Shown here piece by piece: positions 47,109 to 51,452 of a stretch of DNA of 64,000 bases. The notes beneath the pieces are model-generated. The model saw only the letters and a program-made list of their open reading frames with translations, had not been told where the DNA came from and made no database searches. The first letter of the stretch is position 1. The number at the start of each line of letters is the position of its first letter. A program made the translations under genes and the position numbers. This DNA is from Azospirillaceae bacterium (lineage in GTDB: Bacteria > Pseudomonadota > Alphaproteobacteria > Azospirillales > Azospirillaceae), in contig JARLIO010000034.1 in NCBI GenBank assembly GCA_031291675.1, positions 496,001-560,000 of the forward strand, written 5' to 3'.

Positions 47109-48422
47109 TCAGATCGTTTGCAGCGTCGGTTCTTTCAGGAAGACACGATATTCCTCCAGGGCCATATCCTGATCGAATTCCCCTTCCATCTTCGAAACCA
47201 CGATCGTCGCGACGCTGTTGCCGATCAGGTTGGTGATGGCCCGGGCTTCCGACATGAACCGGTCGACTCCCAGCAACAGCGCCAACCCCTCGACGGGCAA
47301 GGCATGGGTCGCCGAGAGCGTCGCCGCCAGCGTGATGAAGCCCCCGCCGGTCACAGCCGCCGCGCCCTTCGAGGTCAGCATCAGCACCGCCAGGATCGAG
47401 ATCTGCTGCCAGATGCTGAGGTCGATATTATAGGCCTGGGCAATGAAGATGGCCGCCATCGACAGATAGATCGAGGTGCCGTCGAGATTGAAGCTGTAGC
47501 CCGTCGGGATCACCAGTCCGACCACGGTCTTGGAGCAACCGAATCGTTGCAGCTTCAGCATGATCCGCGGCAGCGCGCTTTCCGACGAGGAGGTGCCGAG
47601 GACAATCAGGATTTCCTCTTTGATATAGCGCAGCATGCGCCACAGCGAGAATCCATACGCCCGGGCGATGACGCCCAGCACGACGAAGATGAAGCCGGCC
47701 ATCGTCAGATAGATCGATACCATCAACAGCCCGAGCGACGTCAGGGACCCGATGCCGAAGGTGGCGACGGTGTAGGACATGGCGCCGAACGCCCCCAGCG
47801 GGGCGAAACGCATCAGATAGCCGATGACTCCGAACAGGGCATGGGCGACCTTTTCCAGAAAATGCTCGACCGGCTTGCCCGGTTCGCCCAAAGCCGCCAG
47901 CGCGGCGCCAAAAAACACCGAGAAGAACAGGATCTGCAGCAGATCACCCTTGGCAAAGGCGCCGACGATGTTGTCGGGCACGATGTTGACCAGGAATTCG
48001 ACAGTCGACTGGTGGCTCGCCAGATCGGCGTATTTGGCGACGTCCGCGTTCTTCGCCGCGCTCCCGGCGGTTGCCGCCACCGCGCCGATCCCGCTTCCCG
48101 GGCGGATCACATTGACGACCACCAGGCCGATCGCCAGGGCAAAAGTCGTCACCACCTCGAAATAGAGCAGGGCCCGCCCGCCGACGCGGCCAACTTTTTT
48201 CATGTCGCCGATCCCGGAAATCCCGGTCACCACGGTCAGGAAAATGATCGGTGCAATCACCATCTTGACCATGCGAATGAAGACATCACCGAGCGGGCGC
48301 ATATCGACCGCGGTTGCCGGCGCCAGCGCGCCGAGCACGACCCCGATCACAATCGCGGTCAGCACCTGAACGGTAAGATTGGTATAAAATGGCTTCCTGG
48401 CAGCAACCGACGCTCCGACCAT
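47109..48422 (-). CDS. dctA: C4-dicarboxylate/proton (or sodium) symporter DctA
   Basis: A 437-residue transporter of the DAACS family, which takes up succinate, fumarate and malate. It has about eight membrane helices and two hairpins; the first hairpin holds [16 protein letters not shown], and [19 protein letters not shown] is the helix 7 ligand and cation region. The ATG at 48422 is preceded by GGAGGAAG, an excellent site. No dctBD two-component genes are next to it. It probably supplies TCA intermediates. Confidence 0.94.
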
Positions 48423-48774
48423 TCCCGCTTCCTCCGCGATCTGTTTTTGACGTGCCGTTTTTCGGCCTGATACCTGAAGCGGCCTCACCCTTCCGGGTGC
48501 AGAATGTCATCGAACGCCGTCCAAGGAACAAGCGGGAATGGTTGTACAGGCCTGGACGATCGTACAAGGCGTGCGCGAACGGAATTCCGATTGACAGATC
48601 TGCTTTTCCGGCGCTGGCGCGTGGTCCCGATCGCGCCGGCGCCCGAGGCTGCGCTTTGATCGGTCACGATCAAAGCGGATCGGTGTCACAGCCGTTAGCG
48701 GCAGCGGGCCGGGCTGCCGTCACCGACTTCGATTCCGTGTTTCCGATCGGGCCCCGTAGCCGCCGCCGGCGTCC
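48423..48774. other. Intergenic region upstream of dctA with a REP-like element
   Basis: A 352-bp spacer between dctA and the 3' end of the citrate synthase-like gene, both leftward. It contains the inverted copy of the 50-bp element seen at 25302. The dctA promoter must lie here, but I could not identify a -24/-12 or -35/-10 pair with confidence. Confidence 0.55.
48632..48681 (-). repeat. REP-like element, family 1, copy B
   Basis: Inverted copy of 25302-25351 with three mismatches in 50 bases. The hairpin CGCTTTGATCG / CGATCAAAGCG is fully conserved (48652-48677 here). Both copies lie in gene-free spacers next to 3' or 5' gene ends. Confidence 0.75.
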
Positions 48775-49953
48775 TCAGGTTGCCGGCCGCGGTCCGACAT
48801 AGCGGGCCCGGGGTCGGATCAGCTGACCCAGGGCACGCTGCTCCAGAGCATGGGCAATCCACCCGACCGCGCGACCCGCGGCAAACAGGCCCAACGCGGC
48901 CCCTTCCGGTAGCCCCAGGCCGCGACGCAGGGCGACCAGCGCGAAATCCAGCGAGGCCCGCCGGCCCGTCAAATCAAACACGGCGTCACTGATCGCATTT
49001 GCCTGAGGAAACCGGGACCCGAGACGATCCAGGATCAGCCGCGCCCGCACATCGCCATCGGGATAAAGCGGGTGGCCGAAGCCGGGGATTTCGGCCCCCG
49101 AGTCCAGCATGCGGTGCAGCACCACCGTGTGATCGGAGTAGCCCTCAAGGTTGCGAAACAGCGCCTCCACCCGGATCGTCGTTCCGCCGTGGCGCGGTCC
49201 CGTCAAGGCCGCGAGGCCGCCGATCAGCGTGGCGCGAAGACTGGCCCCGGTCGAGGCAATGCACCGGGCCGTGAAGCACGATGCGTTCAGCTCGTGGTCG
49301 GCACACAGAATCAGGGCGCTGCGGATCAGGTCGGCACCGGTCGGGTCAAGTCCCCAAACCCAGGCGCATTGTTCGGAAATCGGCCACCGGCTGGGCGATG
49401 TTCCCAGCAAACATGCCACGAGGGTACGGACCAGCGCCCCACAACCGGCGGCGATTCGGCCGGGATCGCTCTGCCAATCGGCGGTCTGATCGTCGTCCCC
49501 GGCCGCCGCGAAACGGGACAGGAGCCAACCAGAATCATCCCGACCAAGGATGACGGATTCGCGGCGCGGGGCCGGATCGCTGTCGCCGGACGGGAAGGCA
49601 TCACGCTCCGGCATCTGCCACAGCAGCGCGGCGACGGCCTCGACGCTGTGGGCCGCGGCCAACCCGACCGCATCCTGGCCGCGATAATAGAGCCGCCCCT
49701 GCTCGATCAGCGTCAGGCCGGATTCGAGAACCGGCAGGCCCCAATCGATCGTTGCCTTGGCGATTTCCTTCGGCTTGCGCCCGCGCCGCCGCTGATGGGC
49801 CAACGCCTCGACCGCATCACGCGCATAGCGCCGCTCGCGCGGATCGGGACCCGGAAACGCCACCAGCAGACCGCGACTGACATAGGCATAGAGCGTTTGC
49901 CGCGTAACGCCCAGTCGTTGGGCCGCCGCGGTCGCCGACAGCAACTTGTCCAT
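48775..49953 (-). CDS. Citrate synthase family protein with N-terminal MerR-like HTH
   Basis: A 392-residue fusion. Residues 1-65 form a MerR/excisionase-like DNA-binding head (LLSATAAAQRLGVTRQTLYA, then ERRYARDAVEAL). The rest is a citrate synthase fold with the active-site segments ADHELNAS, GPRHGG and GFGHPLYPDGD, and a late Asp in SLDFALV, so catalysis looks possible. The first His of the usual LHADHE is Cys. GGGAGG precedes the ATG. A perfect palindrome sits 15 bases upstream and a CoA-transferase gene is divergent. I infer an enzyme, or metabolite sensor derived from one, that regulates its own locus. A housekeeping gltA is unlikely to look like this. Confidence 0.87.
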   Translation of the reverse strand: MDKLLSATAAAQRLGVTRQTLYAYVSRGLLVAFPGPDPRERRYARDAVEALAHQRRRGRKPKEIAKATIDWGLPVLESGLTLIEQGRLYYRGQDAVGLAAAHSVEAVAALLWQMPERDAFPSGDSDPAPRRESVILGRDDSGWLLSRFAAAGDDDQTADWQSDPGRIAAGCGALVRTLVACLLGTSPSRWPISEQCAWVWGLDPTGADLIRSALILCADHELNASCFTARCIASTGASLRATLIGGLAALTGPRHGGTTIRVEALFRNLEGYSDHTVVLHRMLDSGAEIPGFGHPLYPDGDVRARLILDRLGSRFPQANAISDAVFDLTGRRASLDFALVALRRGLGLPEGAALGLFAAGRAVGWIAHALEQRALGQLIRPRARYVGPRPAT

Positions 49954-49967
49954 GCCGAACCTCCCGA

Positions 49968-49983
49968 TATATTGATCAATATA
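49968..49983. promoter_or_regulatory. 16-bp palindromic operator in divergent promoter region
   Basis: TATATTGATCAATATA is a perfect inverted repeat, AT-rich in a GC-rich genome, within the 101-bp spacer between the HTH-citrate synthase gene and the CoA-transferase gene. It is 15 bases from the former's ATG. The obvious candidate binder is the HTH domain encoded next to it. Confidence 0.7.
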
Positions 49984-50054
49984 ATCAAGATTGACGATTT
50001 TTGGCAAACACGACGGAATGGCCCTGCCGGTCGGGCAAGATGGAGGGCGGAGCG

Positions 50055-51452
50055 ATGAAAGAGACCACAAACGATGCCTTTGGGCGCCTGTTGGCCACAA
50101 TCTGGGACGCCGTCGGCGGCGCGACGGCGGACCTCGAGCGGGTTCGCGTCATCGGAACCGGTGATCTGCCGTCCGCCTTTGCCGTGACCGACCTCGCCGC
50201 AGCATCGACCGCGGCGGCCGGTCTGGCGGTCTCGGAATTCTGCGCCGGTCCGGGGTCAACCGGACCGCTGGTGACGATCGACCGGCGCCTCGCGTCATTC
50301 TGGTTCGCAACGTCGCTACGCCCCGAGGGTTGGAGTCCACCGACGCCCTGGGATGCCATCGCCGGTGACTATCGCGCCGCGGATGGCTGGATCCGGCTGC
50401 ACACCAACGCCCCGGCGCACCGCAACGCCGCACTGACGGTCCTGGGGGTCGACGCCGACAAGGACCGCGTCACCGGGGCGGTCGCCTCCTGGTCCGCCGA
50501 CGGCCTGGAGAGCGCGATCGTCGCCGCGGGCGGCTGTGCGGCCCGCCTGCGCAGCGCCGCCGAATGGTCGGCACATCCGCAAGGCCAGGCGATCGCCGGC
50601 GCGCCCCTGATCGACAGCGCGCCGGGCAGTTCCGGGCCGATCCCGTCGCAATCCGTCGACGGGGCGCGCCCGCTTGCCGGGCTGAAGGTTCTCGACCTGA
50701 CCCGCGTGCTGGCGGGGCCGGTGGCCAGCCGCTTCCTGGCCGGATACGGGGCAACCGTGCTGCGCATCGACCCGCCCGATTGGGATGAACCCGGCGTGGT
50801 GCCCGAGGTCACGCTCGGCAAACGGACCGCCCGGCTCGATCTGCACCGGGGCGATGACCACGCGCAGCTCGTGGCACGACTGGCCGAAGCCAATGTCCTG
50901 ATCCATGGTTATCGGCCGGACGCCCTGTCACGGCTCGGGCTTGGTGCGGATGTCCGCCAGAAAATTCGCCCCGGTCTGGTCGATATCACGCTCAACGCCT
51001 ATGGCTGGCGCGGCCCGTGGTGTGGCCGCCGCGGCTTCGACAGTCTGGTGCAAATGAGCAGCGGTCTCGCGGATGCCGGGATGCGCCATTTCGGCAGGGA
51101 CCAACCGACACCGCTTCCGGTCCAGGCTCTCGATCATGCAACGGGCATGATGATGGCTGCCGCCGCGATCCGCGGTCTGCGGAACCAACGCCAGACCGGT
51201 CGCGGGGTCCGGGCCCGGGCGTCGTTGGCCGCGACCGCCGGGCTCCTCGCCGGCTATCCCCTGACAGCGCCCGCGCCGCTGTCAGGGGAAATCGGCGCCG
51301 ACCGTGACGAGCACCGCGAGTTCACGGCCTGGGGCCCGGCCCGGCGCCTGCGCTGGCCCCTGCGGATCGGGGCGATCCCGGTCTCATGGCATCGACCGGC
51401 GTCACCGCTCGGCATGGACACCCCGGGCTGGGGATCGGATGATCCCGAATAG
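50055..51452 (+). CDS. Family III CoA transferase (CaiB/BaiF) with permuted domain order
   Basis: A 465-residue protein. Residues from about 210 on read PLAGLKVLDLTRVLAGPVAS, the usual N-terminal beginning of CaiB/BaiF enzymes, with the GYRPDALSRLGLG motif and the catalytic Asp in GFDSLVQMSSG near 335. The first 200 residues contain DGWIRLHTNAPAHRNAALTV and a segment like the C-terminal part of ordinary members, so the two halves are in swapped order. The ATG at 50055 follows GGAGGGCGGAG; an ATG at 50040 is an alternative. It faces the HTH-citrate synthase gene across an operator, suggesting that both work on the same acyl-CoA. Confidence 0.83.
   Translation: MKETTNDAFGRLLATIWDAVGGATADLERVRVIGTGDLPSAFAVTDLAAASTAAAGLAVSEFCAGPGSTGPLVTIDRRLASFWFATSLRPEGWSPPTPWDAIAGDYRAADGWIRLHTNAPAHRNAALTVLGVDADKDRVTGAVASWSADGLESAIVAAGGCAARLRSAAEWSAHPQGQAIAGAPLIDSAPGSSGPIPSQSVDGARPLAGLKVLDLTRVLAGPVASRFLAGYGATVLRIDPPDWDEPGVVPEVTLGKRTARLDLHRGDDHAQLVARLAEANVLIHGYRPDALSRLGLGADVRQKIRPGLVDITLNAYGWRGPWCGRRGFDSLVQMSSGLADAGMRHFGRDQPTPLPVQALDHATGMMMAAAAIRGLRNQRQTGRGVRARASLAATAGLLAGYPLTAPAPLSGEIGADRDEHREFTAWGPARRLRWPLRIGAIPVSWHRPASPLGMDTPGWGSDDPE

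Follow-up and report, generated by a model that had tools for sequence, protein, structure and literature searches.

The 64,000-nt window analysed here was taken from an Azospirillaceae bacterium (assembly GCA_031291675.1, contig JARLIO010000034.1, positions 496,001 to 560,000 of the forward strand), and all positions below are those of the window. Between 48775 and 51452 lie two divergently transcribed genes, one encoding a helix-turn-helix (HTH) head fused to a citrate synthase (CS) domain (HTH-CS; product P0001) and the other a family III CoA transferase (CoAT; product P0002), separated by a spacer with a conserved dyad-symmetric site that we regard as a putative operator. The genes and the domains of HTH-CS are positioned as follows.

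48775-49953, minus strand: HTH-CS gene, 392 aa (P0001), one open frame for both domains
49789-49944, minus strand: HTH_17 DNA-binding head, residues 4-55 (Pfam HTH_17, 34.7 bits, cut-off 27)
48808-49737, minus strand: citrate synthase domain, about residues 73-382 (Pfam PF00285 Citrate_synt, 177.9 bits, cut-off 27)
50055-51452, plus strand: divergent family III CoA transferase with rearranged domain order, 465 aa (P0002; CoA_transf_3, 151.7 bits, cut-off 23.3)

The initial annotation described HTH-CS as a citrate synthase with intact-looking catalytic segments and its own DNA-binding head, and the Pfam scores and the catalytic residues of P0001 bear this out. The head passes the HTH_17 profile, whereas it falls below the cut-offs of both MerR (20.6 bits, cut-off 28.2) and MerR_1 (20.1 bits, cut-off 21.6); its TLYAYVSRG segment is invariant or nearly so among 36 aligned relatives. 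The predicted model of P0001 (pLDDT 87.6) has the two-domain citrate synthase fold (Z 30.6, rmsd 2.9, 298 residues against 6abv), and its best PDB matches, by sequence as well as by Foldseek, are mycobacterial CitA. The family was assessed on a first set of 81 HTH-CS genes, comprising the window's own and the best 80 of 398 relatives, which is biased to close relatives; the genome's ordinary citrate synthase (L002) was excluded from the family counts. In PrpC numbering, His200, His235, Arg283, Arg350 and Arg369 occur in 81/81 members and His274 and Asp325 in 80/81, and all are present in P0001. These positions comprise the catalytic His, His and Asp and the His/Arg residues that bind oxaloacetate.

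HTH-CS thus shares its fold and its catalytic and oxaloacetate-binding positions with the citrate synthase/2-methylcitrate synthase family (PF00285; GltA, PrpC and mycobacterial CitA), while the N-terminal HTH is a feature of HTH-CS and the alignment to PrpC shows HTH-CS to be shorter between about residues 115 and 190. P0001 scores far under the curated cut-offs of the named NCBIfam citrate synthase models (best PRK12350, 144.9 against 332, a cut-off exceeded in one of 14 named control genomes), and pipelines usually annotate HTH-CS as 'citrate synthase family protein'. The home genome holds a separate full citrate synthase, judged GltA-like from its translation; HTH-CS is therefore not the sole candidate for the enzyme of the tricarboxylic acid (TCA) cycle.

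Given a CoAT start at ATG 50055, the spacer between the two genes is 101 bp long (49954-50054), which agrees with the short divergent spacer, facing a family III CoA transferase, of the initial annotation. It contains the following elements.

49960-49965, minus strand: GGGAGG, resembling a ribosome-binding site (RBS), 6 nt ahead of the HTH-CS ATG, read off the sequence
49968-49983, no strand: exact 16-bp palindrome TATATTGATCAATATA, overlapping the operator and not conserved as such
49972-49988, minus strand: operator core TTGAT-N7-ATCAA, on the gene strand TTGATTATATTGATCAA, kept beside HTH-CS genes
49989-49995, minus strand: operator flank GTCAATC, of which GTCAA is almost invariant in both partner classes
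50042-50047, plus strand: RBS-like GGAGGG of CoAT, read off the sequence

The 16-mer at 49968-49983 is the palindrome first noticed at this locus. It is exact as described, but it ends 14 bases before the HTH-CS ATG and not 15. With 3 mismatches allowed, a palindrome of this kind has an expectation of 0.01 per window. As a conserved element it fares poorly: the upstream regions of 78 of the 81 HTH-CS genes (the window's own included; L018, L075 and L079 left out) contain the exact 16-mer in just two cases, the window and L082, and we rejected it as the conserved operator, the dyad being centred elsewhere. What is conserved is an overlapping 24-bp site, GTCAAT[A/C]TTGAT-N7-ATCAA (49972-49995, minus strand), whose dyad centre lies 4.5 bp from that of the palindrome. 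Its logo is near-identical in loci with a CoAT partner and in the remainder, and the wider flanks are far less conserved. Across the 78 regions the mean number of complementary flanking pairs is 6.1/8 at the centre of the core, 3.6 at the centre of the palindrome and 2.34 on average over all centres tested. A second, weaker dyad TCAATNTTGA lies 9.5 bp off (mean 5.17/8 pairs) and therefore gives three TTGA half-sites, the outermost of which may be a site for the protein or may belong to the neighbouring gene as its -35 box (TTGAC).

The near-absence of the exact 16-mer from other regions is what would be expected had an AT-rich palindrome arisen by chance in a spacer rich in GC. We give that explanation next to no credence, since conservation of the 24-bp site that overlaps it greatly exceeds chance and extends over three proteobacterial classes; chance is rejected for this site and holds solely for the palindrome's outer TATA arm. 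The initial annotation had proposed a survey of the palindrome beside orthologues, with flanks lacking any palindrome as the outcome that would count against its idea. A conserved dyad was found there, and the idea survives in this altered form.

The operator accompanies HTH-CS widely. Within the 150 bp preceding the called start and the 30 bp following it, the core occurs with no more than one mismatch at 78/81 HTH-CS genes (58 exact, 20 with one mismatch), compared with 0.006 % (exact) and 0.44 % (one mismatch) of letter-shuffled regions; the misses are L079, L018 and L075. The site is kept at L070 and L077, where no divergent ORF of at least 150 aa lies nearby, and in L063 the called start falls inside the site and is probably wrong. 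In a second, more even sample that includes a genome draw (L100 and L102 repeat the first-set loci L056 and L079, respectively; L124 was left out for too little upstream sequence and L126 was kept despite a misplaced start), the core was present with at most one mismatch at 27/33 evaluable loci, the match in L105 being probably a chance one at the start codon. The site also occurs, with one mismatch, beside HTH-CS in the gammaproteobacterium Ewingella.

An even draw of 289 genomes from the class of the window (taken to be Alphaproteobacteria) gave HTH-CS in 31 (called at E<=1e-40). The exact 24-bp site was found in 17/31 genomes with HTH-CS and in 3/258 without it (Fisher p about 2e-16), and in all 17 it lies directly upstream of the HTH-CS gene. 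The 5.87-Mb home genome contains the exact site once; the next best match has two mismatches, and no further operator target was found there at zero or one mismatch.

The position of the operator relative to putative promoter elements points to repression. One candidate promoter was assigned to HTH-CS.

49978-50007, minus strand: candidate sigma-70 promoter of HTH-CS, TTGCCA-18 nt-TATATT (10/12, consensus match only), with its -10 inside the operator

Within 48480-50120 two promoter-like sites were found, with spacers of 16 and 18 nt, compared with a mean of 0.2 in shuffled sequence. Read in the CoAT direction, the operator flank gives TTGAC (49991-49995), possibly the -35 box of CoAT. As the RBS-like element occupies 49960-49965, transcription of HTH-CS must begin at most a few bases from the operator edge or else upstream of it, and a dimer on the operator would shut off the gene that encodes it. 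The mechanism that we propose would run as follows. The CS half would form a dimer whose intact active site would bind oxaloacetate, acyl-CoA and/or citrate, and the HTH heads, two per dimer, would bind TTGAT-N7-ATCAA in the divergent spacer. The bound protein would cover the predicted -10 of HTH-CS and adjoin the possible -35 of the neighbour, and for that reason HTH-CS would most likely repress both genes. Ligand, probably through the open/closed movement of citrate synthases, would alter the grip on DNA, and relief of the repression of both genes by a ligand of the CS site is the simplest reading. Sensing of oxaloacetate or an acyl-CoA is plausible, and P0001 may catalyse as well. We consider it probable, though well short of certain, that HTH-CS is a ligand-responsive one-component transcription regulator with a citrate synthase as its sensor, which when bound to the operator most likely represses itself and its neighbour.

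The same features bear on a different mode of action, in which HTH-CS would act as a MerR-type activator, binding in an over-long spacer between -35 and -10 and activating the neighbour by untwisting the DNA. The HTH is MerR-like and draws weak matches from the MerR and MerR_1 profiles, both below cut-off, and the operator overlaps the divergent promoter candidates. MerR promoters, however, hold their operator in a spacer of 19-20 nt, compared with 16 and 18 nt for the candidates here, and the helices listed for the P0001 model include no long coiled-coil helix ahead of the CS domain. We consider such an activator highly unlikely.

The identity of the neighbour is not constant. Of the 80 related loci, 39 have CoAT as the divergent partner, 33 a second citrate synthase and eight another gene, and the site is kept with CoAT, with the second citrate synthase and in most of the eight other loci. 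The CoAT partner is conserved in alpha- and betaproteobacteria and in at least one gammaproteobacterium. In the second citrate synthase, Glu replaces the catalytic Asp in 33/33 loci (e.g. L044 and L082); the partner in Agrobacterium fabrum (L083) belongs to the PRK12350 subfamily (454.6, cut-off 332). Elsewhere HTH-CS stands opposite a CitMHS citrate-transporter-like gene (L024) or a DUF2332 gene (L128 and L130), the latter, annotated also at the Roseomonas locus L085, being a third recurring neighbour. In a tree of the 81 proteins the CoAT clade is largely apart from the second-synthase clade (6 label changes, compared with 32.1 in shuffled labels). Outside that tree, L119 and L121 encode HTH-CS proteins 43 % identical to P0001 that face a CoAT whose best segment is 58 % identical to P0002. 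Because these distant loci also face CoAT, HTH-CS and CoAT may have come together, or parted, on more than one occasion.

The initial annotation saw in the gene pair a possible self-regulating unit in which the enzyme controls formation of a CoA ester. The intact HTH-CS, the spacer dyad and the conserved CoAT partner fit a self-regulating unit; the exact palindrome as its operator does not stand. Because the divergent partner changes between loci (a second citrate synthase in 33/80, DUF2332 or CitMHS elsewhere), formation of a CoA ester is not a constant theme.

CoAT itself departs from the canonical domain order. Family III CoA transferases such as FRC, SUGCT and CaiB share with P0002 the Rossmann half and the catalytic Asp, but in P0002 it is the C-terminal half that bears both, residues 207-406 corresponding to Pfam positions 1-210; in eight CoAT relatives the C-terminal half likewise matches the profile, beginning at position 1 and ending at 202-222. 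The catalytic Asp329 is invariant (26/26 in a 26-sequence alignment) and aligns with the Asp region of Rv3272. In the predicted model, residues 203-463 span whole canonical chains minus their middle part (best Z about 23, 254-258 residues), matches that barely test residues 1-200. The N-terminal halves of the relatives resemble the middle of the profile, corresponding to positions 149-317 in 5/12 singly scored pieces (one over the cut-off) and reaching E<=0.1 in 9/19 cases in an alignment scan. The window's own N-terminal half gave no score against CoA_transf_3, and a sequence-level search with a profile of the CoAT N-terminal half gave no convincing relative of solved structure (best E 0.41).

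In an alternative account the enzyme comes first: HTH-CS would be a condensing enzyme that joins the acyl-CoA made by CoAT to oxaloacetate, or cleaves a citryl-CoA-like ester, while the HTH limits its own level, as in a trigger enzyme of the PutA kind. The retention of all catalytic residues in 80 or 81 of 81 HTH-CS proteins, the full CS fold (Z 30.6), the invariant Asp329 of CoAT and the persistence of the HTH-CS/CoAT pair across families are all consistent with it. Against it, a second citrate synthase, DUF2332 or a transporter can stand in the place of CoAT with HTH-CS retaining its site, so no pathway is constant. The idea of a broader conserved cluster was rejected: beyond the pair, within about 6 kb, no ORF cluster occurs in more than 9/80 loci, and the most shared one (9/80) is antisense to HTH-CS.

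A published case may bear on the same question. Caulobacter crescentus encodes two further citrate synthase homologues, CitB and CitC, with consecutive locus tags (CCNA_03757/03758); CitB complemented an E. coli gltA deletion and CitC did not, and the reported identities to E. coli GltA are 30 % for CitB and 33 % for CitC (PMC7083601). In our loci, identity to Klebsiella GltA has a median of 29.7 % over 377 residues for the partner synthase (range 27.3-32.5) and of 32.3 % over 197 residues for HTH-CS (range 25.7-36.1, overlapping the partner range). The published values for CitB and CitC resemble the partner-synthase and HTH-CS medians, respectively, and these figures, with their overlapping ranges, weakly suggest that CitC is of the HTH-CS type. 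The words helix-turn-helix, HTH and MerR are absent from the main text of PMC7083601, and the CCNA_03757 promoter has elsewhere served as a negative control (PMC11475020). If CitC is an HTH-CS, its intact site would serve sensing or another substrate and not citrate synthesis for the TCA cycle, which would account for the failure of this 'citrate synthase' to act like one. The failure of CitC, taken as HTH-CS type, to complement gltA where its neighbour CitB did (PMC7083601) is a further point against an enzyme-first role, and altogether we judge that role unlikely, although it is the strongest of the alternatives considered.

Several observations weigh against a ligand-responsive repressor acting through this operator. 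At the gene level, L079 has the core with an 8-base spacer only; L018, L075 and L086 have a recognisable HTH and neither a site nor a recognised divergent partner; and 5/28 evaluable loci of the genome draw fall short of the one-mismatch level, L126 with its misplaced start among them. In the genome sample, 14/31 genomes with HTH-CS lack the exact site, several of which (e.g. G182, G271, G004 and G266) have a one-mismatch site beside HTH-CS. The promoter assignments are consensus matches; in the CoAT direction, a -10 downstream of TTGAC appears only as a weak peak at 16 nt, and the promoter search returns a different candidate for that direction. The near-perfect conservation of the catalytic Asp exceeds what a pure sensor would need, and catalysis could be the main job of HTH-CS.

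The remaining difficulties come from four CoAT genes that we examined on plasmid records without a detected HTH-CS. On the 873-kb Burkholderia stagnalis plasmid plas2 the full site occurs without mismatch 81 bp ahead of the CoAT start (L166 7667-7690), and no other copy with two mismatches or fewer was found there; HTH-CS was not detected on plas2, the chromosomes not having been searched. A plasmid of the cyanobacterium Tolypothrix PCC 7910 (L169) encodes a CoAT 56 % identical to P0002, with no HTH-CS on the record, and about 145 bp before it the core occurs with one mismatch and no flank, as in 0.9 % of shuffles. No site was found before the CoAT genes of Sphingomonas insulae and Ruegeria. 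The B. stagnalis site suggests either control of CoAT in trans or another binder, and another regulator could bind it. Were that general, a different protein would occupy the operator and the HTH of HTH-CS would have some other role, which the three loci with an HTH and no site would also suit. Yet the exact site tracks HTH-CS (17/31 genomes compared with 3/258) and lies beside HTH-CS where both occur, and it is retained through the partner swaps, so we think a different binder very unlikely.

Further neighbours of HTH-CS were also inspected, and one lies directly beside it in the window.

47109-48488, minus strand: C4-dicarboxylate transporter gene (DctA), just 3' of HTH-CS on the same strand

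Its placement is suggestive; the shared ORF clusters (within about 6 kb, 80 loci) do not include DctA. Near HTH-CS in Ewingella americana pB61a (L168) and in L087 and L086 lie genes for a 2-hydroxyacid or D-glycerate dehydrogenase and a major facilitator superfamily (MFS) transporter, a possible hint at a hydroxy- or oxo-acid substrate.

Trigger enzymes with a DNA-binding domain of their own exist, PutA being an example. With these HTH-CS has in common an enzyme and a DNA-binding domain in one chain (by profile) and a conserved site beside its own gene in a divergent spacer; unlike PutA, it has another sensor fold, another DNA-binding fold and other partners, and substrate-dependent DNA binding is at this stage a proposal. 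With the one-component regulators of the MerR family it shares an HTH of the same superfamily at the N terminus and an effector domain at the C terminus, but its effector is a whole enzyme, the profile scores are below cut-off and no elongated promoter spacer was seen. We accordingly file HTH-CS as a trigger-enzyme-like one-component regulator with citrate synthase as the sensor. We know of no transcription factor that reads oxaloacetate or acetyl-CoA via a citrate synthase. Full-text literature searches for an HTH-citrate synthase regulator (HTH, operator or regulation) gave none among the matches listed; a 'citrate synthase family protein' tabled in PMC12542777 is grouped there with genes of the biosynthesis type and was considered unrelated.

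On a bolder view, to which we give somewhat less than even credence, HTH-CS would represent a new class of transcription factor in which a whole citrate synthase serves as a repressor responding to oxaloacetate and acyl-CoA (or citrate) at the TCA-cycle entry, using the same 24-bp operator across different gene pairs (CoAT, second citrate synthase, citrate transporter and DUF2332) and the open/closed cycle of catalysis as its switch. Central metabolism is entered through oxaloacetate and acetyl-CoA, and with the operator mapped the regulator idea can be put to the test. As far as can be read from sequence, the conserved control site beside this widespread bacterial protein suggests that HTH-CS is a gene switch responding to compounds of central metabolism.

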